In this document: positions 10,280 to 62,193 of the stretch, in pieces
Position numbering within the stretch: the first letter of the stretch is position 1
How the letters are laid out: the number at the start of each line of letters is the position of its first letter
The notes under the pieces: generated by a model
Seen by the model: the letters and a program-made list of their open reading frames with translations, nothing else
What the model was told of the DNA's origin: nothing
Databases searched by the model: none
Origin: Cytobacillus sp. NCCP-133
GTDB taxonomy: Bacteria > Bacillota > Bacilli > Bacillales > Cytobacillaceae
DNA: 64,000 bases
Assembly: GCF_026011715.1 (NCBI RefSeq)
Contig: NZ_BRVM01000009.1
Span: 62,001-126,000 of the forward strand
Reading direction: 5' to 3'
Program-made: the position numbers and the translations under genes

Positions 10280-11314
10280 TTATTTTGTGTTTAAAATGGC
10301 GTCAAGTTTTTCCTTGCCGAATTGGGATTCATATTTTTCATATACAGGCTGGATCGCTTCACGGAAAGGCGCAACATCCACTTCTTCAACGATTTCCATT
10401 CCCTGTTCCTTCAGTACCTTTAAGGATTCTTCATCAGACTTTGTAATCAGTTCGCGGATCTGGTCGCCGGCCTTTTTGGATTCCTCTTTTAAGATATCCT
10501 GATATTCTGCAGGAAGCGTATCCCATACAGATTTACTGAACATGATGACAGCCGGTGAATACAAGTGGCCCGTCAAAGTCATGTACTTTTGGTTTGCTTC
10601 ATAAAGCTTGTACGTATCTGCTACAACGATTGGGTTTTCCTGTGCATCAACCACTCCCTGCTGAAGAGCTGTTAACGCTTCAGTCCAAGCCATTGGCGTT
10701 GGCTTAGCACCTAATGCATTAAATGCATCAAGGTGAATAGGGTTTTCCTGCGTACGGATTTTTAAGCCTTTTAGATCTTCAGGCTTATGGATTGGCTTCT
10801 TCGCATTTGTGATATGGCGGAAACCATTTTCCCCCCATGCAAGACCGACAATTCCGACATTCTCCATCCCTTTTAAAAGCTCCTGACCGATTTCTCCATC
10901 CAGAACCTTGTAAGCGTGTTCACGTGATTCAAATAAGAAAGGCATGTCCACGATCCCGATTTCCGGATAGAAGTTCGCAATGGGCGCTGTGGAAGAAACA
11001 GACATATCAGCTGTTCCAAGCGTAAGAGCCTCAGTCAATTCTCTTTCTGCTCCAAGCTGGCTTAAAGGGAATACTTCGATCTTCACCTTGCCATCTGTGC
11101 GCTCCTCAACATTCTTAGCTAGCGCCAACAAACCGATATGGTACGGATGGTCCTCTGTTAAGGAGTGGCCCGCCTTCAGACTAAACGTCTTGCCGCTATC
11201 CTTTTCCCCCGAATCACCTTCACCGCTTGTCGAACTGGAGCCGCCGCCTCCGCAAGCTGACAAAATCAGACTCAATACCAGCATCGGCACCAGCCATAAA
11301 AATCTCTTTCTCAT
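10280..11314 (-). CDS. dctP: TRAP transporter solute-binding lipoprotein (DctP)
   Basis: Lipoprotein of 344 aa: signal peptide with lipobox LSAC (C21) followed by a Gly/Ser linker, then the DctP fold (FSLKAGHSLTEDHPYHIGLLALAKNVEERTDGKVKIEVFP). The ligand-organising arginine region LKIRTQENPIHLDAFNALGA is present, and TALQQGVVDAQENP is the usual second signature. In TRAP systems this arginine binds the carboxylate of the ligand, so the substrate is an organic acid. First gene of the operon, 78 nt before dctQ. Confidence 0.92.
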   Translation of the reverse strand: MRKRFLWLVPMLVLSLILSACGGGGSSSTSGEGDSGEKDSGKTFSLKAGHSLTEDHPYHIGLLALAKNVEERTDGKVKIEVFPLSQLGAERELTEALTLGTADMSVSSTAPIANFYPEIGIVDMPFLFESREHAYKVLDGEIGQELLKGMENVGIVGLAWGENGFRHITNAKKPIHKPEDLKGLKIRTQENPIHLDAFNALGAKPTPMAWTEALTALQQGVVDAQENPIVVADTYKLYEANQKYMTLTGHLYSPAVIMFSKSVWDTLPAEYQDILKEESKKAGDQIRELITKSDEESLKVLKEQGMEIVEEVDVAPFREAIQPVYEKYESQFGKEKLDAILNTK

Positions 11315-11568: not shown

Positions 11569-11707
11569 TAATTTGTGAACTTTGCAAATAGAATGGTCAT
11601 TTCTGCAAATAGAGTGTTAGATTTTGCAACTAGAACTGCCTAACCCGCAAATTGGACAATTGATTTTGCAAATAAGACCATTATTTTTGCAAATAGACCT
11701 GCGTCAA
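11569..11707 (+). repeat. 21-nt periodic intergenic array, locus 1 (TTGCAAATAG family)
   Basis: Six units start at 11582, 11603, 11624, 11645, 11666 and 11687, exactly 21 nt apart. Each has a core TTGCAAATAG-like decamer and 11 variable bases. A leader AATTTGTGAACT precedes the first unit, matching loci 37998-38175 and 60444-60509. The array lies between dctP and pbpC in otherwise empty DNA. It has no long identical repeats, so it is not a CRISPR. Confidence 0.85.
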
Positions 11708-11742
11708 TGCCCGGTCATAGGTCTTAGAGAGGGGCACATGTA

Positions 11743-11781
11743 AAAAAATGTCTGCCCCTTTTTCAGGATGCAGACACTCTT
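11743..11781 (-). terminator. Terminator of the PBP gene
   Basis: In the minus direction GTGTCTGC...GCAGAC is followed by a run of seven T, immediately after the stop codon at 11783. Confidence 0.8.
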
Positions 11782-11782
11782 A

Positions 11783-13789
11783 TTAAAACCTCCCTTTATT
11801 CTCTTCAAAGACCTTCTTCACTTTCTCTACTACCACCTTCGACCCTCCGCTGTTTTCAACGCCCTCCATCATCATTGCTATCAAAAGCTTAGGAGATTGC
11901 GGATTGTACGCAACAAACAGTCCGTTTTCCTGCCCCTTTTCATCTGCGCTTTTCTTCAGCTCGGCAGTTCCCGTCTTGCCGGCCAGCGGGTAGTCTTTCA
12001 TATAGGCAGCTCGGCCTGTTCCGCCTGGTGCCTGGATGACTTTTTCCATCATTTTTTCGATTGTATCAGCTGTCTCCTCGCTCATCACGCCTTCTTTCAG
12101 CACCTGTCCTTTTTCCTCTTCTTCTATTAATACAGGCTTAATCATCGAACCCTTGTTGATGAAAGGCGTATAAGACGCTGCAAGATGAACCATGCTCATT
12201 TCTACCTGTCCCTGGCCGTAGCCGGAATCTGCAAGGAGTATTTCAGTGTCCAGACCGCCAATTTTGGATTGTTCAAGCGGAAATGCGTATGGAATTTCCT
12301 CTTCGAATGCAAACTTCTTGAGCCCTGCTGCAAACCGTTCTTTGCCAAGTTCGAGTGCCTCCTGGGCAAAGAAAATATTATCCGAGTACATCATCGCCTT
12401 TTCAAAGTTCACTGGTCCTCCTGGATCTTTTACCCGCGTAACTTTGTAGCCTCCCCAAGCGCTTCCTTTTTGCCACTGAAGGCCCTTTACATTAATCGTT
12501 TCATCCAATGTTAAGGTTCCTTCCGTCAACCCGATTGCACTTGTCAGAGGCTTCATTACAGATCCAGGCGCATAGGTTTGCTTAAAGCGGGTCAAGAGCG
12601 GCATGTCCTTATTTTCTTCTATCGACTTCCACTCATCAGCGGTAAAACCAAGTGATGCCTGATTCGGGTCAAAGCTTGGGCTGCTGACGAGCGCCAGCGT
12701 ATCTCCAGTCACTGGATCCATCGCAGCAGCTGTTCCCGGCTTTCCTCCCAGTTCTTTATAAAGGGATTGCTGCAGATTCATATCGATTGTCAGCTGAATA
12801 TTTTCCCCATTCTCAACCGGCTTCTCTGCCAGCATGACTTCAGAGCCATCTTTCTTTTGGATGCCGATTTTGATCCCGTTCGCCCCTTTTAGCCGTTCTT
12901 CCAGCACCTGCTCAAGTCCTCTTTTGCCAATCATATCCGTGCTTGAATAGCCATCATGCTCCTTCATTTCTTCCGCTGTAATGGACCCCACATAGCCGAT
13001 CAGGTGTGCAGCTGCTTCACCCATTGGATATACTCTTCCTTTGACATCCTGCTTTAAAACGCCTTTCAATGCAAAGACTTTATCCAGCTTATCTTTATCA
13101 TCAGGGGAGACTTTTTTAATTGGAACAAAATATCCCGGCTGCACCCAGCTGGCATTTAAGCTTTTATGAATCTGTTCCTCTGATACCCCTAGTGCCTCAG
13201 ATAGCCCTTTAATGGTCTGTTCCTTTTGAGCGCCCATCTGTTCAGGAACGACACCGATTTCGTAAAGGGTGCCATTTAGAGCAAGCGGGTCCCCGGTACG
13301 GTCCACAATATCGCCGCGCTTAGCTGGAATGGTTGAGTAGTTTATTTTATCCTCCGGACCAAGCTCTGGAAAAATATAAGTCGTGTCCCAGGCAACAAAC
13401 CAATTTTCTTTTTCTTCCGTTTCTTCCCTCACAAGCTTGGCATCATGGGTGAACTCAATCTTCCCGGCAGCACTGTCCATGCTTGCAGAAAAAGGAAAAC
13501 TGGCACTCTCTTCCTTCTTATATTCCTTCTCCATATCCGGCTTGTATGTAATCTCCAGATTATTTATCTCTAAATCCTTATAAACCTTTTCATAGCGGCC
13601 AGCATAATCCTCTTTGCTGATGGACTGCTTCGCATCCTTCGACAGAAAGTCATACATCTTCTCAAACTCCTGCTTATTCCAATGCTCCACATACTGCGCA
13701 AAACGATCCTGCGGCTTAACTTCCTTATTGCACCCGCTCAAAGCGGCCAAAACCAGGACAGCAAAAACGGCAAACATAACCTTTCTCAT
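11783..13789 (-). CDS. pbpC: Class B penicillin-binding protein, PbpC/MecA type
   Basis: Peptidoglycan transpeptidase anchored outside the cell. Lipoprotein-type signal LAALSGC (C20), then an NTF2-like MecA N-terminal domain (about 28-145, DRFAQYVEHWNKQEFEKMYDFLS), a PBP dimerisation domain (about 155-320) and the transpeptidase domain (about 340-660). The catalytic motifs are complete: S410-V-M-K, S469-D-N and K605-T-G. Length of 668 aa equals that of B. subtilis PBP3. Monocistronic. Relatives of this type have low beta-lactam affinity; that property is known for the family, not seen here. Confidence 0.93.
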   Translation of the reverse strand: MRKVMFAVFAVLVLAALSGCNKEVKPQDRFAQYVEHWNKQEFEKMYDFLSKDAKQSISKEDYAGRYEKVYKDLEINNLEITYKPDMEKEYKKEESASFPFSASMDSAAGKIEFTHDAKLVREETEEKENWFVAWDTTYIFPELGPEDKINYSTIPAKRGDIVDRTGDPLALNGTLYEIGVVPEQMGAQKEQTIKGLSEALGVSEEQIHKSLNASWVQPGYFVPIKKVSPDDKDKLDKVFALKGVLKQDVKGRVYPMGEAAAHLIGYVGSITAEEMKEHDGYSSTDMIGKRGLEQVLEERLKGANGIKIGIQKKDGSEVMLAEKPVENGENIQLTIDMNLQQSLYKELGGKPGTAAAMDPVTGDTLALVSSPSFDPNQASLGFTADEWKSIEENKDMPLLTRFKQTYAPGSVMKPLTSAIGLTEGTLTLDETINVKGLQWQKGSAWGGYKVTRVKDPGGPVNFEKAMMYSDNIFFAQEALELGKERFAAGLKKFAFEEEIPYAFPLEQSKIGGLDTEILLADSGYGQGQVEMSMVHLAASYTPFINKGSMIKPVLIEEEEKGQVLKEGVMSEETADTIEKMMEKVIQAPGGTGRAAYMKDYPLAGKTGTAELKKSADEKGQENGLFVAYNPQSPKLLIAMMMEGVENSGGSKVVVEKVKKVFEENKGRF

Positions 13790-36089: not shown

Positions 36090-37898
36090 TTACGAAATGC
36101 CATGCTTTCTCAGCTTCTGATAAAGGGTTGTCCGATGGATGCCCAGCAAATCGGCGGCCTTGGATTTATTCCCGCCGGCCTTTCTTAGAGCATGAAGAAT
36201 CAATTCCGATTCTCTTTGGTTGCCCAGTAACTTGGCTTCTTCGATGGATCCGGCTGCGGATGGCGCTTTCTTTCCTTTTTTAACGGAAGGGCCCGCCCCC
36301 TTCAGCATATCCGGCAAATGCCGATAATCAATGACCTTCCCGTCCACCAGTGTCACAAGCTGCTCCACCGTATTCACCATTTCACGGATATTCCCTCGCC
36401 ACGGGTGATGGACAAAAGCATTTACCGCCTCAGATGTAAATAGTTTTCCAGGTATCTTGTACCGATCACAAATTTCTCTCAGATAATGGACCAGCAGGAC
36501 GGGGATGTCTTTTTTCCGTTCACGGAGCGGCGGAATGTGAAGCTGGATGATGTTCAGCCGGTAATACAGATCCTCACGGAATTCCCCATCCTCGATCATT
36601 TGCTTAAGGTCACGGTTTGTCGCTGCGATGACTCTGACATTAATTTGATATTTTTTCACACTGCCGACTCGTTCTGCTTCTTTTTCCTGAAGGACCCGCA
36701 GCAGCTTGGTTTGCATGACTAGGGGCATCTCTCCGATTTCATCGAGAAAAATGGTGCCATTGTCGGCCAGTTCGAATTTCCCCGGCTTGCCGCCTTTTTT
36801 CGCGCCAGTGAATGCTCCTTCTTCATAGCCAAACAGCTCGGACTCGAATAAATGCTCTGGGATCGCCCCGCAGTTTACACTGATGAACGGACCCGTAGAA
36901 AAGGGGCTGAGATGGTGAATGCTTTTGGCGAACATCTCTTTGCCTGTTCCGCTTTCGCCCGTAATCAGGACAGTAGCCGCCGTTCTTGCTGCCTTCCGGG
37001 CCAGCCGCTTCACCTCTGTAATTCCCTCGCTTGTCCCAATGATCTGATCAAGCGTAACCCGGCTGTCGCTCTCTTTTTTCTTTGTAAAAAGATCAGGATT
37101 TGCGGTTTGATTTTCCTGCAGCTTTTCATAGATTTTATAAACCTCTGTGACCCCTTCAAAAATCAGCATCCCGATCGCGCCGACAATCCGGTCTTCCTTC
37201 CAGATCGGAATCCGGTGCACCACCATATCATGGCCCTGGATATTTTGAAGAACCCCGCGTTCTGCCATGCCAGTCTTCACCGTTTCATGGAGATGAGTGT
37301 TATCAATCACCTCTGTTACATGCCGTCCAATTGCATCCTCCCGCTTAATTCCGGTAAAACGGCTATACGCCTCATTAAATTCCTGCAGGATGCCATTTTC
37401 ATCGACAACAGCAATGCCCTCATAGGCACTTTCCAAAATGGCGCCAAGAGCACCGGTGGAATTATGCTGCTGCTTCAGCTTGTAAATATACTTGGAAAGC
37501 CCATCAAGGATATCCCTCGCTGTCAGGATGCCAAGCAGCTTTCCATCCTCCCCCATAACCGGCAGCTGATCATACGGAAGCGAAAACACATCAAGAATGG
37601 AATCATCCGGCCTGATGGCAGCCAGATTTGCCTTAGGTATGCTGCCGATCAGATCGTCTCCTTGATTGCCCTGTGCAAAATAGTTTATGAGCTTTCTCGA
37701 CGTAATCATCCCAATCAGCCGATTGGTCTCATCCACCACCGGCAAACTGTCAAGGTGCAGCTGCACCATCATTTGAGAAGCCTCCCTTAATGTCTGCCCC
37801 GGCTGAATGCAATAAGGGCTGGGTGTCATCCAGTTCTTCACATGAAAGAGTTCATCGCTATGCAGTTCTTGATTCTTATCAGATACAGCTTGAGACAA
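36090..37898 (-). CDS. CBS-PAS sigma-54-dependent activator
   Basis: Enhancer-binding protein of about 602 aa. Order: two CBS domains (about 25-145, MTPSPYCIQPGQTLREASQMM and SILDVFSLPYDQLPVMGED), a PAS domain (about 160-260), AAA+ (about 290-520: GESGTGKEMF, LFGYEEGAFTGAKKG with an intact GAFTGA, GTIFLDEIGEM) and a Fis HTH (about 560-600). CBS pairs often bind adenine nucleotides, so it may read energy state as well as a ligand. I prefer TTG 37898, six nt after GGAGGGG; an ATG at 37913 in frame has no site. Placed directly before its probable target operon. Confidence 0.92.
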   Translation of the reverse strand: MSQAVSDKNQELHSDELFHVKNWMTPSPYCIQPGQTLREASQMMVQLHLDSLPVVDETNRLIGMITSRKLINYFAQGNQGDDLIGSIPKANLAAIRPDDSILDVFSLPYDQLPVMGEDGKLLGILTARDILDGLSKYIYKLKQQHNSTGALGAILESAYEGIAVVDENGILQEFNEAYSRFTGIKREDAIGRHVTEVIDNTHLHETVKTGMAERGVLQNIQGHDMVVHRIPIWKEDRIVGAIGMLIFEGVTEVYKIYEKLQENQTANPDLFTKKKESDSRVTLDQIIGTSEGITEVKRLARKAARTAATVLITGESGTGKEMFAKSIHHLSPFSTGPFISVNCGAIPEHLFESELFGYEEGAFTGAKKGGKPGKFELADNGTIFLDEIGEMPLVMQTKLLRVLQEKEAERVGSVKKYQINVRVIAATNRDLKQMIEDGEFREDLYYRLNIIQLHIPPLRERKKDIPVLLVHYLREICDRYKIPGKLFTSEAVNAFVHHPWRGNIREMVNTVEQLVTLVDGKVIDYRHLPDMLKGAGPSVKKGKKAPSAAGSIEEAKLLGNQRESELILHALRKAGGNKSKAADLLGIHRTTLYQKLRKHGIS

Positions 37899-37997
37899 GT
37901 CGGACCCCTCCATCAGTCTTAATTTTCTAAATTATAACACTTCTTAAGAACGGCAAAAACTAGCGGTTGTTGACAGATTCGAAAACCGGATGTGTTG

Positions 37998-38176
37998 CGG
38001 CCAATTGTGAACTTTGCAAATAGAACATCGAAACCTGCAAATAGGGAGCGTAATTTTGCAAATAGGGAGCGTAATTTTGCAAATAGGGAGCGTAATTTTG
38101 CAAATAGACTGTGGGAACCTGCAAATAGAATGACCTATTTTGCAAATAGAACCGGAAAACCTGCAAATAGACCACT
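37998..38176 (+). repeat. 21-nt periodic intergenic array, locus 2 (TTGCAAATAG family)
   Basis: Leader CCAATTGTGAACT (38001-38013) then eight units starting at 38014, 38035, 38056, 38077, 38098, 38119, 38140 and 38161. The three units from 38035 are identical (spacer GGAGCGTAATT), a recent duplication. An open frame on the minus strand through it just repeats YLQNYAP and is an artefact of the 21-nt period. Confidence 0.9.
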
Positions 38177-38205: not shown

Positions 38206-38240
38206 AAAGAAAGACAGAGAGCACTCCCCTCTGTCTTTCC
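38206..38240 (-). terminator. Terminator of the LacI-controlled operon
   Basis: Minus-strand GAAAGACAGAG...CTCTGTCTTTC followed by TTTTTAT, after the permease stop at 38252. Confidence 0.8.
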
Positions 38241-38251
38241 GCCAATACCAT

Positions 38252-39562
38252 TTAGAAAATCGAGAACAGCACAACGGCCAGAATGACACCCAGGATCGGC
38301 ACAACAACTGTCAATGCACCAAATGCAGGGTATGCATCCTTATGGGATTCACCGGCAATCGCACGAATGGTCGTAACAACGTAGCCGCCATGCGGCAGAG
38401 AATCAATAGATCCGGAAGAAATCGCCACAACACGGTGAAGCTCACTTGCATTAACACCCATATCCAGATAATGCGGGGCAAGCAGCGGCAGCGCGATGGA
38501 TTGCCCGCCGGATGCGGATCCAGTCAGGCCGGCAATAACAGATACTGCGAGGGCTCCTCCGATTAATGGGCTTCCCGGAATGCTTGTCATTACATCAACC
38601 GCACTGGCAAATGCAGGTGTCGCTTTGGCCACCCCGCCAAAGCCTACAACGGCAGATGTATTGGCAATCGCGATCAATGCGCCAATCGTTCCTTCAGACG
38701 CGGCTCCCCATACATTGGTAAAGTACTTCCGGTTAAGAATATAAGTTGCAAAGCAGCCGCTCAATAAGGCAATGATCAGGGCTGACTGTGCTAATGAATC
38801 ATGGAAGATAAATGAAATCACTAGCACGACCAAAAGCGGAATCATACTTAACAGAGGGCTTGGCAGATTTTCACGAATCAAGGTAGAATCCGTTTCCCTT
38901 GCCTCAAATTTCTCCCCATTGCGGACAGCTTTATTGATCATCTTCTTAAGCCACCAATAACCAAATGCCATCATAAAGACAGCAACAATGAAGCTGACCT
39001 CCCAGCCTGCATACGGAGAAGTTCCCAGGAACTCAATCGGAATCCAGTTCTGGATTTCCGGTGAACCAGCTGATGTCATGGTAAATGTAGTCGAACCGAA
39101 GGCAAGAGCTGCCGGTATAAACCTTCTTGGCAGGTTAGCTTCCTTAAATAGACTCAATGCCATTGGATAAACGGAAAACGCCACGACAAACAGACTCACG
39201 CCGCCATAGGTTAAGACCGCACAGGCAATCACTACCGCTAAAGCCGCCCGCTTCATGCCAATTTTATCGATAATCCATTTCGACACACTGTCTGCAGCTC
39301 CGCTGTCTTCCATTAACTTTCCGAAAATGGCCCCAAATAAGAACATCAAATACCAGGATGTGATAAATCCGGCAAATCCGTTCATGTAATTCGTTAAAAA
39401 ATTGGCTTCCCCTTCGGCCGCCACCTGCGGAAAAATTGGCAATCCGCTAAATATTGCAACAATAAAAGCTGCAAGAGGGGCAGCAAGCAGCAGGTTCATC
39501 CCTCTCATCGTCAAGTAGATGAGCAGGATTATCCCCCCAAGCAATCCAATCATACTAAGCAT
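38252..39562 (-). CDS. GntP-family hydroxyacid permease (2)
   Basis: Paralogue of the permease at 33369: same signatures SWYLMFLFGAIFGKLMED, ALAFGSTTFTMTSAGSPEIQNWIPIEFLGT, GLTGSASGGQSIALPLLAP, SSGSIDSLPHGGYVVTTIRAIAGESHKDAYP. 436 aa; ATG follows AGGAGGATTCT. It ends the HisD-like/SDR operon and presumably brings in its substrate, a hydroxy acid or a sulfo-/sugar acid. Confidence 0.9.
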   Translation of the reverse strand: MLSMIGLLGGIILLIYLTMRGMNLLLAAPLAAFIVAIFSGLPIFPQVAAEGEANFLTNYMNGFAGFITSWYLMFLFGAIFGKLMEDSGAADSVSKWIIDKIGMKRAALAVVIACAVLTYGGVSLFVVAFSVYPMALSLFKEANLPRRFIPAALAFGSTTFTMTSAGSPEIQNWIPIEFLGTSPYAGWEVSFIVAVFMMAFGYWWLKKMINKAVRNGEKFEARETDSTLIRENLPSPLLSMIPLLVVLVISFIFHDSLAQSALIIALLSGCFATYILNRKYFTNVWGAASEGTIGALIAIANTSAVVGFGGVAKATPAFASAVDVMTSIPGSPLIGGALAVSVIAGLTGSASGGQSIALPLLAPHYLDMGVNASELHRVVAISSGSIDSLPHGGYVVTTIRAIAGESHKDAYPAFGALTVVVPILGVILAVVLFSIF

Positions 39563-39576
39563 AGAATCCTCCTATC

Positions 39577-39862
39577 CGAAAAGCGTAAGGCGCCCGCCTA
39601 TAAGAACGCAGACTAAAACCGCTACGTCCTGTGGCAACGTCTGCATGACCCGCATCCTCGCAAAAGCTGCCGCTTTCGGTCGTGCGGTGCTTATCCTCAA
39701 AAAAAGCTACCGCTTTTTACTTCGTGCCAAAAGATTTGCTGACGAAGCCTTCCTATTCCTGCGGGCCTCAAGCATAAGACAAGCCGGATGAAAGGTTGTA
39801 CTTTAACCTTTTGGACGGATTGGCTTAGACCCGAGAGCCGATGGCGCCTGGAGCTAGACATT
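39577..39862. repeat. Dispersed stem-loop intergenic element, copy 2
   Basis: Starts with GAAAAGCGTAAGGCGCC and ends with GGCGCCTGGAGCTAGACA. It shares long segments with copy 3 at 48309-48500: GTCCTGTGGCAACGTCTGCATG and CCTTTTGGACGGATTGGC..ACCCGAGAGC. It fills the spacer between LacI and GntP genes; I see no gene in it. Confidence 0.75.
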
Positions 39863-48308: not shown

Positions 48309-48500
48309 AATAAGAAAAGCACAAGGCTCCTTGCCCACGAAGGAACGCAGACTAAGAACGCCACGTCCTGTGGCAACGTCTGCATGCCCCCCATCCCGGG
48401 GGTCTCAAGCATAAGACGAGCTGGCTGAAAGGTTGTTTTTTTACCTTTTGGACGGATTGGCTTAGACCCGAGAGCGGATGGCGCCTTTCGCTAGACAGTT
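48309..48500. repeat. Dispersed stem-loop intergenic element, copy 3
   Basis: Starts with AAGAAAAGCACAAGGC and ends with GGCGCCTTTCGCTAGACAG; shares most of its interior with copy 2 (39577-39862) but lacks about 100 nt of it. It is the main content of the 392-nt spacer 48191-48582. Confidence 0.75.
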
Positions 48501-52684: not shown

Positions 52685-52708
52685 CAAAATTCTCCTTTTC
52701 TTTTTTGA

Positions 52709-52813
52709 TGGCAGCTGGCTGGCTTTATCGCAAAGGCATAGCCTTTTATCTACGACTCCTTTGCGATAGAAGCCCCTTTAGCTTTGCGTCATTACTTTTC
52801 AGTAATTTTGCCT
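52709..52813 (-). ncRNA. Cyclic di-GMP-I (GEMM-I) riboswitch
   Basis: On the minus strand: GGCAAA, hairpin ATTACT-GAAA-AGTAAT with the GAAA tetraloop, then the GEMM core GACGCAAAGC with its receptor (AAAGGGGCTT). A long stem TATCGCAAAGG...CCTTTGCGATA follows, then AAGCCAGCCAGCTGCC closing P1 against the initial GGCA. All main GEMM-I parts occur in order. Binding a second messenger of motility/biofilm fits the nearby chemoreceptors and SLH proteins. Confidence 0.82.
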
Positions 52814-53012
52814 TTTATTTCTCATATCGGAATCGTTTTCAACGTTTAAAGGGTTTGAAAATAAGTATTACTATTCCGAAAATAGAACAGCTAACTGCGC
52901 AAAAAGGATATACCCTCTATTGAAAATAGATAAACCTGTTTGCTTTTAAATATTGGAGATTGAATGAAAATAGTTATTCATTTTCTTATATGGTGTACGT
53001 ACTGATTAACAC

Positions 53013-58735: not shown

Positions 58736-60331
58736 TTAAGGGGTTAAAAAATCAAAGATCTGAAAGGCAAGTACAATGGCAATCCAATCTTCCTTTTTAG
58801 TAAAATCCATATCCAATTGACTCTCAATTTTCTTCAGGCGGTATGTAAGCGTATTGGGATGGACATGCATCTCTTCTGCCGTTTTTTTGTGGCTCTTATT
58901 ATTGGCAAGGAACACCTGCATCGTTTGCAGATATTCACGTTCCATTTGTAAAAGGGGGCCAATCTTATCGGAAATGAATTTATTCAGCAAACTTCTGTCC
59001 GTATTGAGCCAAAGCCTTTCAGCACCTAGCTCTGAGTAGGTGACAAAGGTTTTGTGTTTATGGTTTTTGGCAAATGACAAGGCTTCAGTTGCTTCCTGAT
59101 ATGAATCAGCCAATTCTGATAGAGGAACCTCTCTGCCCATGCCAATAACAGCCTGATTGTTAAAAGTCATGATTCTCTGGATGTCCTCCGCCAGCTGCTG
59201 ACCATGCCTTTTCCGTTCATTAGCCAGCAAGGCCACAATTTGATCCGATTTCGTAAAAACAATGCTGGTTTCACCGTATTTCACAAGTATATCCTCCAGT
59301 GACCTGACCAATTTCTCTTTTTGGAGAATGGACGTGGACTCCCAAAGAAACCCCGACTTGCAATCAATCACCATACAGGAAACGCTGCTTTTTTCCTGTA
59401 TGCGGAATTTCTCCAGCATCCTCGCATCCAAACGAGCACCAGTCAGGAGGTCATGGAACGCTTCACCCCGCAGATGCATTTCTTTTTCAAAGAGCGTATT
59501 CTGTTTCACAAAGTCCAGTGACAAGGCGGTCGCAGCATGTTCCAAAGCGGCCTTCTGGATATTGGTTAAACGTTCAATCGGCACTTCTAAAAGGAAATAC
59601 CCAAAGAGTTCGTTGGAGCTGATAATCGGAAATGCGTTATTTTGTTGGTCGTTCGTCTCTGAATAGGTAACGGGGATCTTCAAAATTCGGCTGATGGTTT
59701 CAAGGATATATGCCGTTCCCCTCCCCTCCAGTAAAATCTTCGTAAACCTGCGGTGAATATCCAGCGAATGGCTCAGCTCTTCATTTTTACGCTTGACTTC
59801 TTCGTAAAGATTGGAGTTCATCATGGCAATCGCAGCCTGGTCCGCCACAACCTCTAATATATGAAATTCATCTTCTGTAAACTGAACATCTTTATCAAAA
59901 TTATCCACCACAAGCACGCCCATACACTCATTTTTGTACACCAATGGGACAAGGATTCCGCTTTTAACCTCCCGGCGGAAAACCCCGTTATAGAAGTGGA
60001 TAAAATTGGTTTCAGACATGCGGCTCATATGCTCCCTAAACTCATGCCCGGAAGCAATAACACCCTTCTTTGTAAGAAAAACCAGCCCTGTCAAAGATTC
60101 GCCCGGCTCGAATTTCACCTGCTGCATGAACCGGGCATCCACCCCCACACCTTGGGAGAAATGAAGCAAACCATCTTCTTTTAACTTATAAAGAATCGTC
60201 GTATCCGCATTTTCAACCAGATCAAAGGCGGCTTTGACAAGTCTTTTTAGTATCTCCTCCAGCTCAAGAGACTGGGTCAGGCTGCGATTGATTTCAAGAA
60301 GCCGGATCATTTTGTTTTGTGTAATATTCAT
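58736..60331 (-). CDS. GAF-containing PucR/CdaR-type regulator
   Basis: 531 aa. N-terminal GAF domain (about 25-175, RLVKAAFDLVENADTTILYKLKEDGLLHFSQGVG), a PucR-type middle region with GGDEF-like fold, and the PucR C-terminal HTH (about 465-525, NKSHKKTAEEMHVHPNTLTYRLKKIESQL). Such proteins activate genes for purine, sugar acid or amide breakdown. It lies immediately before the ALDH-DUF3100-hydrolase operon on the same strand and probably controls it. ATG follows GGAGCATAGCCC. Confidence 0.88.
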   Translation of the reverse strand: MNITQNKMIRLLEINRSLTQSLELEEILKRLVKAAFDLVENADTTILYKLKEDGLLHFSQGVGVDARFMQQVKFEPGESLTGLVFLTKKGVIASGHEFREHMSRMSETNFIHFYNGVFRREVKSGILVPLVYKNECMGVLVVDNFDKDVQFTEDEFHILEVVADQAAIAMMNSNLYEEVKRKNEELSHSLDIHRRFTKILLEGRGTAYILETISRILKIPVTYSETNDQQNNAFPIISSNELFGYFLLEVPIERLTNIQKAALEHAATALSLDFVKQNTLFEKEMHLRGEAFHDLLTGARLDARMLEKFRIQEKSSVSCMVIDCKSGFLWESTSILQKEKLVRSLEDILVKYGETSIVFTKSDQIVALLANERKRHGQQLAEDIQRIMTFNNQAVIGMGREVPLSELADSYQEATEALSFAKNHKHKTFVTYSELGAERLWLNTDRSLLNKFISDKIGPLLQMEREYLQTMQVFLANNKSHKKTAEEMHVHPNTLTYRLKKIESQLDMDFTKKEDWIAIVLAFQIFDFLTP

Positions 60332-60442
60332 GGGCTATGCTCCATTCTGATTGGTTCCGTTTTTTATCTATTATAGTACCAATTTCAGTTTTCAGAGGGA
60401 ACTCTTCGCATAAATTCAGCATATCAAGCCTGCCAAATGAAT

Positions 60443-60509
60443 CCATTTGCAATTTTTGCCGCTCTATTTGCAAAATCCCCCATTCTATTTGCAGAGTTCA
60501 CAATTGGCC
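60443..60509 (-). repeat. 21-nt periodic intergenic array, locus 3 (TTGCAAATAG family)
   Basis: On the minus strand the leader GGCCAATTGTGAACT (60495-60509) is followed by units beginning at 60494, 60473 and 60452, again 21 nt apart; the last is partial. Same leader and core as at 37998 and 11569, in opposite orientation. Confidence 0.8.
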
Positions 60510-60663: not shown

Positions 60664-62193
60664 ATGGAACATCTCGGCTGGTTATCCATCATTCCGCCAT
60701 TGCTGGCAATCATAGCGGCAATTGTAACCAAAAACGTTATCATTTCATTATTTTTAGGTTCATTTTCAGGTGTTTTAATTTTGACAAAGGGTTTGCCGCT
60801 TACAGCGACCAAGACGATGATTGGCGATTATTTGTTTGTTCAGCTGACAGACAGCTATAACGCTGGTGTGCTGGTATTGCTTGTTTTTATCGGCGGGTTT
60901 GTCGCTTTAATGGAGAAATCAGGCGGAGCTGCAGCATTTGCGGAAAAAGTAATTAAGTATTTAAACACAAAATCCAAAACGCAATTGGCCGCCTGGTTTG
61001 GCGGCATTGTTATCTTTTTCTCGGATCTTGGCACTCCTCTTTTGATTGGGCCAATTTTTGAAAAGGTATTTGATAAAGCAAAGATCTCTCGGGAAAAGTT
61101 AGCTTGGATCATCGATTCAACAGCTTCCCCTGTTGCCGTTCTTATTCCCTTTATCGGCTGGGGAGTATACATCATGGGACTCATTCAAAAAGAGTTTGAA
61201 GGACTGAGCATGGCTGAGTCAGATTGGGACGCATTCATCCAGGCAATTCCCTATCAATTCTATCCAATCCTAACCGTTCTGATGGTGCCGCTTGTTGCAT
61301 TCACAAAACTGGAGTTTGGTGCAATGGCGAAAGCGGAGAAGCGTGTAAAGGAGACCGGTGCATTATATTGGCCTGATTTAAAGCCGATGAGAAAACCGGA
61401 TCGTTTTAGCGAGTTAAAAGAAACAAAAAGCAAGCCTATCCTCATCTGGCTGCCGCTGCTTGTACTGCTTGTAACATTATTCGGAATGCTGATCCCGCTT
61501 GGATTTCCGTTCCAAAAGATTGAAGGAAGCGCCTTCCGGGTTGCTCTTACAACCGCTTATTTATTTGCTGGCATTCTGTTAATTGTCATGATGGTATTTT
61601 ACAAGGTTAAAAAGTTTGGAGAAGCCTTTGATATTTATATATCAGGCATGCAAAAAATGATGTATGTGGCTGCTACACTCGTGCTGGCTTGGTCTCTAGG
61701 CACAGTCATGAAGAATCTGGGAACGGCCAATTACATTGTAGAAATCATGGATGGAAATGTCCCTGCCTTTATCGTCCCTGCCATCTTATTCCTTGCAGGT
61801 GCATGTATGTCGTTTGCGACCGGAAGCTCATGGAGCACATTCGCCATCATGATGCCTTTGGCTATTCCAATGGCGTTCCATCTGGATGCATCAATTTACG
61901 TCTGCATTGGGGCAGTTTTATCAGGGGGATTATTCGGTGACCATTGCTCTCCTATTTCAGATACTACCATTTTATCCTCTACAGGAGCGGGCAGTGATCA
62001 CATGGACCACGTAAAAACACAGCTTCCTTACGCAATCTTAAATGGATCTGCTGCACTTGCCGCTTATCTTGTGGCTGGGCTAGTCGCAACTACCCTATCG
62101 CTTGCAGTTGCGATCGTCATCATGGTATTTGCAGTCATCTTTATATCCAAGTGGCAAAATAAGTCCAATACCGGGACACCGATGAATACGTAG
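60664..62193 (+). CDS. NhaC-family Na+/H+ antiporter-like transporter
   Basis: 509 aa, about 12 TM. Signatures: GGFVALMEKSGGAAAFAEKV, STASPVAVLIPFIGWGVYIMGL, GACMSFATGSSWSTFAIMMPLAIPMAF, GLFGDHCSPISDTTILSSTGAGSDHMDHVKTQLPYAI (the NhaC motif). The family includes Na+/H+ antiporters and malate-lactate or other organic acid exchangers (MleN), so an acid exchanger is possible. ATG after TAGGAGGACATACTC. Monocistronic, ends in a terminator. Confidence 0.9.
   Translation: MEHLGWLSIIPPLLAIIAAIVTKNVIISLFLGSFSGVLILTKGLPLTATKTMIGDYLFVQLTDSYNAGVLVLLVFIGGFVALMEKSGGAAAFAEKVIKYLNTKSKTQLAAWFGGIVIFFSDLGTPLLIGPIFEKVFDKAKISREKLAWIIDSTASPVAVLIPFIGWGVYIMGLIQKEFEGLSMAESDWDAFIQAIPYQFYPILTVLMVPLVAFTKLEFGAMAKAEKRVKETGALYWPDLKPMRKPDRFSELKETKSKPILIWLPLLVLLVTLFGMLIPLGFPFQKIEGSAFRVALTTAYLFAGILLIVMMVFYKVKKFGEAFDIYISGMQKMMYVAATLVLAWSLGTVMKNLGTANYIVEIMDGNVPAFIVPAILFLAGACMSFATGSSWSTFAIMMPLAIPMAFHLDASIYVCIGAVLSGGLFGDHCSPISDTTILSSTGAGSDHMDHVKTQLPYAILNGSAALAAYLVAGLVATTLSLAVAIVIMVFAVIFISKWQNKSNTGTPMNT

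Follow-up and report, generated by a model that had tools for sequence, protein, structure and literature searches.

Helically phased direct-repeat arrays past gene ends in Cytobacillus: a candidate platform for a DNA-binding protein

Background

Three intergenic arrays of short, regularly spaced repeats in the genome of Cytobacillus sp. NCCP-133 raise the question of what kind of element they form. The stretch of DNA that was analysed, referred to here as the window, comprises 64,000 nucleotides (C9:62001-126000) of a 4.3 Mb genome in 62 contigs. An earlier note on this DNA had reported arrays of six, eight and three units at 21-nt steps behind a common leader, had judged them to be neither CRISPRs nor coding sequence, and had suggested cooperative protein binding or a processed RNA. 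All three arrays were found at the places given. The present analysis adds to that account the six-unit mode, the pairing of the units, the place of the arrays past gene ends and the existence of other core types.

Results

The three arrays of the window

Each array consists of TGCAAATAG cores at 21-nt steps with a TGTGAAC leader ahead of them. The cores occupy positions 11583-11696 (plus strand, six units), 38015-38170 (plus strand, eight units) and 60443-60493 (minus strand, three clear units), and the leaders are AATTTGTGAACTT, AATTGTGAACTT and AATTGTGAACTC, respectively. Every step separating clear units is 21 nt. A search of the window for TGCAAATAG-N12-TGCAAATAG with at most three mismatches gave 14 matches, while the mean over 100 dinucleotide-shuffled sequences was 0.07 and in no case did the count come to 14. 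All exact copies of TGCAAATAG in the window lie inside the three arrays.

Array 1 (11570-11696, plus strand) begins with its leader at 11570-11582, followed by six units with gaps of 21 nt throughout; cores 3, 4 and 5 deviate from TGCAAATAG by 1, 2 and 1 bases. It is flanked on one side by a gene for a DctP-type solute-binding protein (10280-11314, minus strand; the Pfam scan covered 10280-11290) and on the other by a penicillin-binding protein gene (11783-13789, minus strand) whose stop and the last core are 86 nt apart. A hairpin rich in G+C, which carries a run of T on the plus strand (11731-11758), was read from the sequence and separates the array from the 3' end of the latter gene.

Array 2 (38003-38170, plus strand) has its leader at 38003-38014 and eight exact cores, again with all gaps of 21 nt. 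The units at 38036, 38057 and 38078 (stretch 38036-38098) are identical, so that the array may be read as six units plus two duplications. A gene for a sigma-54 activator with CBS and PAS domains (36090-37913, minus strand) lies on the leader side, and on the other side 81 nt separate the last core from the stop of a GntP-type permease gene (38252-39562, minus strand). Between this gene and the array, 3' of the gene, a terminator-like hairpin (38210-38239, minus strand) was read from the sequence, and the hairpin is also present at the corresponding site in the orthologues displayed. An 87-aa open reading frame running across array 2 was taken as a chance occurrence and not as coding.

Array 3 (60443-60505, minus strand) has its leader at 60494-60505, three clear units and a weak fourth match at 60402-60410, 41 nt beyond. 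It sits between divergent genes, the start of a PucR-type regulator gene (58736-60331, minus strand) facing its tail and the start of an Na+/H+ antiporter-family gene (60664-62193, plus strand) facing its leader, and not at a gene 3' end, in which most arrays differ from it.

The window also holds two c-di-GMP-I riboswitches (2103-2186 and 52707-52822, both minus strand) and two Bacillaceae-1 RNAs (39597-39664 and 48336-48402, both plus strand).

The unit and the six-unit module

The unit, of which 599 examples are 21 nt and 199 are 20 nt long, is composed of TGCAAATAG, an A, a G-rich variable middle and AAYY. The 11 bases between cores, described earlier as variable, are not random, having an A after the core and AAYY before the next one. 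Similarly, steps of exactly 21 nt are the rule in the window but not among the relatives, where the two unit lengths are mixed, and because this mixing takes place within arrays it breaks any reading frame, which bears out the view that the arrays are not coding. Core-to-core distances of 20-21 nt numbered 800, against two of 30 nt and ten of 50-51 nt.

Six is the most common number of units in the genus. It was found in 59 of 91 leader-bearing modules and was the mode in 15 of 31 locus clusters for which a leader was required, although lengths of 11 and 16 also occur, and a permissive count that required no leader gave six units in 94 of 202 chains, with 4, 5 and 7 units in 26, 13 and 12, so that chains of four rank second in frequency; the module counts include orthologues and copies within longer arrays, for which the cluster count and a set of 24 modules described below attempt a correction. 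Beyond the genus, only 3 of 21 loci with related cores have six units, the rest having 3 to 20.

The pairing of units was apparent in 24 six-unit modules that share less than 70% similarity. Here a length of 21 nt was found for gaps 1, 3 and 5 in 67 of 72 cases, as opposed to 22 of 48 for gaps 2 and 4 (p=1.3e-8), and the ratio of C to T in the base preceding the core was 53:16 at cores 2, 4 and 6 compared with 13:32 at cores 3 and 5 (p=6.9e-7). The module thus looks like three pairs of units.

An A/T periodicity of 10.3 bp was found in three sets with differing cores, 23 Cytobacillus modules, 15 arrays of G011 (a genome of the same genus) and 10 arrays of G543 (a genome from another family of the order), with z values over column-permuted arrays of 5.8, 5.0 and 4.2 and 0 of 500 permutations as high in each, values that may be inflated since column permutation disrupts A/T runs. 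At 20.6 bp the corresponding z values were -2.1, 3.5 and 0.7.

Constraint on the core

In pairwise comparison of ten sets of orthologous sites, which share genomes, substitutions were found at 114 of 2019 core, 565 of 2400 spacer and 2039 of 11907 flanking positions, a change in the core about 4-fold below that of the spacer, although the ratio is biased to some degree because recognition of the core allowed up to two mismatches. Overall, then, the core is constrained relative to the spacer, as the earlier account would have it. At the degV site (four genomes) the cores did not differ at all (0/324), while the spacers differed by 19-56%. The one locus that departs from the rule is gntP, the site of array 2, where the core changed at 17 of 324 positions and the spacer at 9 of 319. 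Position 9 of the core was the most variable core position overall (32/219). The six-unit orthologous arrays of the gntP and degV sets, four genomes each, align unit by unit.

Arrays with other cores

The architecture is not tied to one core sequence. When a finder was given the period alone, intergenic arrays at 19-22 nt were detected in both G011 (16 over 400 kb) and G543 (10 over 400 kb), a density that is not representative because both stretches were picked around known arrays. At five other period ranges each of the two genomes gave a single genic array and nothing intergenic. The same finder gave no array in 200 kb of G002 and one, genic, in 200 kb of G026. In 213,867 bases of other loci from the genus it gave 20 arrays at 19-22 nt and two at 40-43 nt, TGCAAATAG arrays included, with none at seven other ranges and none after shuffling.

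The cores recovered in the survey include TTTGATAGG, AAATGATCGA, GGCGAATAAA, GGCGGATAA, GTTGATAAA and TGCAAATAAA, and two arrays of the GTTGATAAA type in G543 start with TGTGAAC. The genome from which the window comes also has a six-unit array of GCGAATAAA cores behind the same leader (L233). One G011 array that looks coding (L322:18336) was dropped from the six-unit, 3'-end and A/T-phase analyses. Six units were counted in 9 of the 15 remaining G011 arrays and 1 of the 10 G543 arrays, and the nearest gene 3' end was no more than 117 nt away for 8 of the 15 and 6 of the 10, respectively. At the hpf site of G011 there are two arrays with other cores (one AAATGATCGA-like, the other TTTGATAGG), each with six units and all gaps of 21 nt. 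Two arrays in one gap were seen twice in this genome, with differing cores behind hpf (L304:2168-2281 and 2313-2426) and with cores of the same type elsewhere (L331:4405-4787).

Placement relative to genes

Genes were predicted by a purpose-written script, and the placement counts are partly non-independent, as orthologous loci recur. Three of 58 arrays overlap a predicted open reading frame. For the remaining 55, both flanking genes run in the direction of the array in 23, in the opposite direction in 12, converge in 13 and diverge in 4, and one flank is lacking in 3. A predicted terminator was found within 120 nt of 46 of the 61 gene 3' ends that face arrays, compared with 81 of 171 comparable array-free ends. 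Sense arrays (36 of these ends) start a median of 64.5 nt past the stop codon and are shifted toward the gene end (KS p=1.3e-6), while antisense arrays (25 ends) start a median of 86 nt past the stop and their position in the gap is indistinguishable from uniform (p=0.21).

A Pfam scan of 40 proteins, 36 of which are encoded next to arrays and five of which gave no hit at the cut-off applied, revealed no common function among the 36 neighbours; they include permeases, penicillin-binding protein, the S30AE/hibernation factor (hpf), DegV, a DEAD helicase, TldD, urocanase and a fatty acid desaturase. A conserved stretch with TCTCCAGACCGAGG was observed on the tail side of the arrays of five loci (L069, L184, L197, L204 and L206), and at L184 a TldD/PmbA-type gene comes next after it.

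Discussion

A proposed explanation

We tentatively prefer, with somewhat less than even confidence, the reading that the array is a DNA site, neither a gene nor a CRISPR, that serves as a phased platform, placed where transcription units end, for a putative protein that oligomerises or wraps the DNA. In its usual form the Cytobacillus module consists of a TGTGAAC leader and six cores spaced by 20-21 bp; its length of about 125 bp corresponds to twelve helical turns, and its units are arranged as three pairs. A putative oligomeric DNA-binding protein would occupy the cores cooperatively, all from one side of the helix, and would bend or wrap the DNA of the array. Such a complex, located just past terminators, might work where the transcription unit finishes, either by insulating against or obstructing read-through or by absorbing supercoils as a topological sink. 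The 125 bp or so that would be wrapped comes close to the length wrapped by DNA gyrase, although nothing in these data names gyrase.

That a protein binds the arrays, wraps them and plays such a role is what we infer from several observed properties. The preferred number of sites, their pairwise spacing, the helical phase, the occurrence in either orientation and the combination of constrained cores with free spacers favour a protein-DNA complex over an RNA or the products of slippage, and their position behind genes suggests that they act where transcription stops.

A dispersed repeat as an alternative

An alternative that we consider unlikely, yet the most serious of those weighed, is that the arrays are selfish or neutral dispersed repeats, in the manner of REP/BIME elements or MITEs, which spread to harmless sites behind terminators and whose core is kept for a mobilising enzyme. 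Its strength lies in the patchy distribution of the arrays. They are by no means absent from relatives of the window's genome, the two-core pattern with at most one mismatch being found in 22 of 36 genomes of the genus and at least five times in 19 of 36, while a control pattern gave one match apiece in two genomes. The number of matches, however, ranges from 0 to 152, and 17 of the 36 have none or one match of the TGCAAATAG core pair, which is thus dispensable. At the level of the family, 36 of 193 genomes matched, many once only, compared with 9 for the control, and strong multiplicity beyond the genus was confined to genus g16 (G100: 89 matches). Of 397 genomes sampled across the order, 38, from 16 of 135 genera, contained a degenerate pair, GCRAATARA with a 21-nt separation (control, 5 genomes).

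The existence of several core types per genome is likewise consistent with dispersal, as is the gain of new loci, indicated by an 845-nt array in G007 at a place where G034 has some 1,046 nt of unrelated make. The G007 arrays at 0.54, 0.96 and 2.99 Mb have very similar units. Furthermore, an array with at least five recognised cores was present at 13 of 30 hpf loci of the genus (30 read out of 36 hpf matches), 11 of the 13 having six, and some relatives (G018, G032, G009 and G023), judged by eye, have the same upstream gene end without an array. The gntP site holds an array in 10 of the 16 loci read and at most one recognised core in the other 6; in two of the genomes, G029 and G015 (L243 and L245), a common G+C-rich sequence, CTCCAGGCACTCGC...GGGGTCTCCC, stands in its stead and is perhaps another dispersed repeat. 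Against dispersal, the same sites are kept across several species, the invariance of the degV cores beside diverging spacers is not expected of unselected copies, and neither a terminal inverted repeat nor a target duplication was noticed in a casual, unsystematic reading.

No match on plasmids was obtained for one long array used as query. A single match to a viral contig was set aside as a repeat within a predicted gene that looks unrelated. The pattern search gave 84 stretches, eight of which came from other organisms, were read by eye and were excluded from the counts. These eight are mostly repeats of a different make, but two contigs titled Nitrosopumilus MAG carry similar-looking, near-identical 20-nt arrays of GTGCAAATAG/A (L080:2596-2684 and L103:5524-5572). 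The L080 array is preceded by AATGTGAATTT, which resembles the Bacillus leader; convergence, transfer or a binning error may account for such arrays in an archaeal MAG. Arrays of the Cytobacillus type also occur in contigs titled Paenibacillus sp. FSL R5-0490 (L076 and others) and Pseudomonas sp. ISL-84 (L120), titles that may be wrong.

A possible RNA element

It is less probable still that the arrays function as RNA, transcribed from the minus strand, with quasi-palindromic cores (YYTGCARA) pairing to give stacked hairpins that are processed or bound by protein. The folding of 25 of 30 chosen modules, compared with shuffles, gave a mean z of -1.84 on the minus strand, negative in 25 of 25, and -0.53 on the plus strand. 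An even number of units would suit such pairing, and the freedom between C and T before the core, which corresponds to A or G on the minus strand, could be tolerated by G-U pairs. However, the complementarity of nested spacers was not significant (12-56, z=1.7, a value reached by 56 of 1000 shuffles; 23-45, z=-0.2), and a nested hairpin joining units 1-6, 2-5 and 3-4, suggested by single folds, was rejected for want of spacer complementarity. The transcript would be sense to the adjacent gene at some loci and antisense at others, and this presence of arrays in both orientations favours DNA over RNA. In addition, core types such as GACG-GCGAATAGA have no palindrome by inspection, and a search with Rfam 15 gave no match at the gathering score on the arrays of the window, the best around array 2 having an E value of 0.93, which is at the level of chance. 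Of the two possibilities raised in the earlier note, helical phasing with cooperative binding is the better supported, by the 20-21 nt spacing, the cores that are conserved overall (the gntP set apart) and the 10.3-bp A/T phase, while the processed RNA is the weaker one.

A possible chromosome-organising site, or slippage

We find it quite improbable that the arrays are chromosome-organising sites of the origin-proximal region, with a use comparable to that of polar anchoring sites near oriC. Clustering does occur. In the closed genome G007 (dnaA at 334), which is 4.98 Mb long, 11 of 18 arrays fall between 4.452 and 4.691 Mb, and 15 of 18 are no more than 1 Mb from dnaA; the pattern gave 7 arrays in G020, which lie no farther than 0.82 Mb from dnaA, with a cluster at C1 4.925-5.071 Mb; in G026 9 of 15 arrays lie in one 285-kb stretch (C1 0.342-0.627 Mb); and about eleven arrays were counted in the genome of the window, seven of them on one 163-kb contig, C9. 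These loci are largely co-inherited and are therefore not independent, other arrays of G007 are distant from the origin (2.28, 2.55 and 2.99 Mb), the orientation on the left arm is mixed, and the related-core matches of G543 are spread over 0.18-2.58 Mb among the ten matches listed (total at least 10). A replication fork trap or polar guiding sequence was rejected because both orientations are interleaved in the 4.45-4.69 Mb region of G007.

Slippage that generates tandem repeats without function is scarcely credible, for although identical adjacent units and higher-order duplications occur in the arrays (38036-38098 in the window, and in relatives), the unit number is preferred, gap lengths alternate, leader and core are conserved while the spacers are free, and the 800 kb of G011 and G543 held no intergenic array at the five other period ranges.

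Comparison with known systems

The arrays resemble CRISPRs in having a leader, a constant part and a variable part. However, CRISPRs have near-identical repeats of about 23-50 nt, whereas the arrays have a 9-10-nt core in a 20-21-nt unit, spacers of 11-12 nt with constrained ends, duplications within the array and a preferred length. The earlier exclusion of a CRISPR is thus sustained. Acquisition of units at the leader end, as in CRISPRs, was rejected on the unit-by-unit alignment of the orthologous arrays of the gntP and degV sets, and there were no cas genes among the 36 neighbouring proteins scanned, which are not all of the neighbours. A DNA uptake sequence, which occurs in single scattered copies, was rejected on account of the confinement of exact TGCAAATAG to arrays in the window.

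The REP and BIME elements of enterobacteria are small intergenic repeats that occur at gene 3' ends, avoid divergent promoters and form clusters and families, and some BIMEs are reported to bind gyrase. The arrays share with them the placement at gene 3' ends and the scarcity between divergent genes (4/55), but they have no palindromic unit, only the short TGCA centre of the core being palindromic and even this missing in some core types, and consist instead of direct 20-21-nt repeats with a leader, usually six in the genus. Plasmid iterons and centromeres such as parC are direct repeats of about 20 bp that align the bound proteins on one face of the DNA. The arrays are also helically phased direct repeats, to which a putative cognate protein may bind cooperatively, but they are chromosomal, with many loci per genome, and the 36 neighbours scanned include no rep or par, replication or partition gene.

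The BOX and RUP elements of pneumococcus are also interspersed intergenic repeats of a Gram-positive genome (PMC3049150); by description, the arrays differ from them in being phased direct repeats. More generally, the arrays matched no described repeat family within the scope of the literature searched. The case for novelty is built on these differences from known classes and on the open-access literature searched, which gave no description of such arrays.

A more general, speculative proposal, which we regard as rather unlikely, is that Cytobacillus and its relatives possess an undescribed class of phased DNA module at the ends of transcription units, in which an architecture of about 20.6 bp, with six sites in the genus, and a location past gene ends are kept while the cores vary by exchange from lineage to lineage, and also inside single genomes. 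This would imply a family of cognate DNA-wrapping proteins and a sequence-specified element of bacterial chromatin. If this reading holds, the countable architecture of this abundant intergenic element in the genus, six sites in three pairs over about 125 bp, would correspond to one defined, as yet unnamed, protein-DNA complex, and would bear on the way in which bacteria contain read-through and supercoiling between genes.
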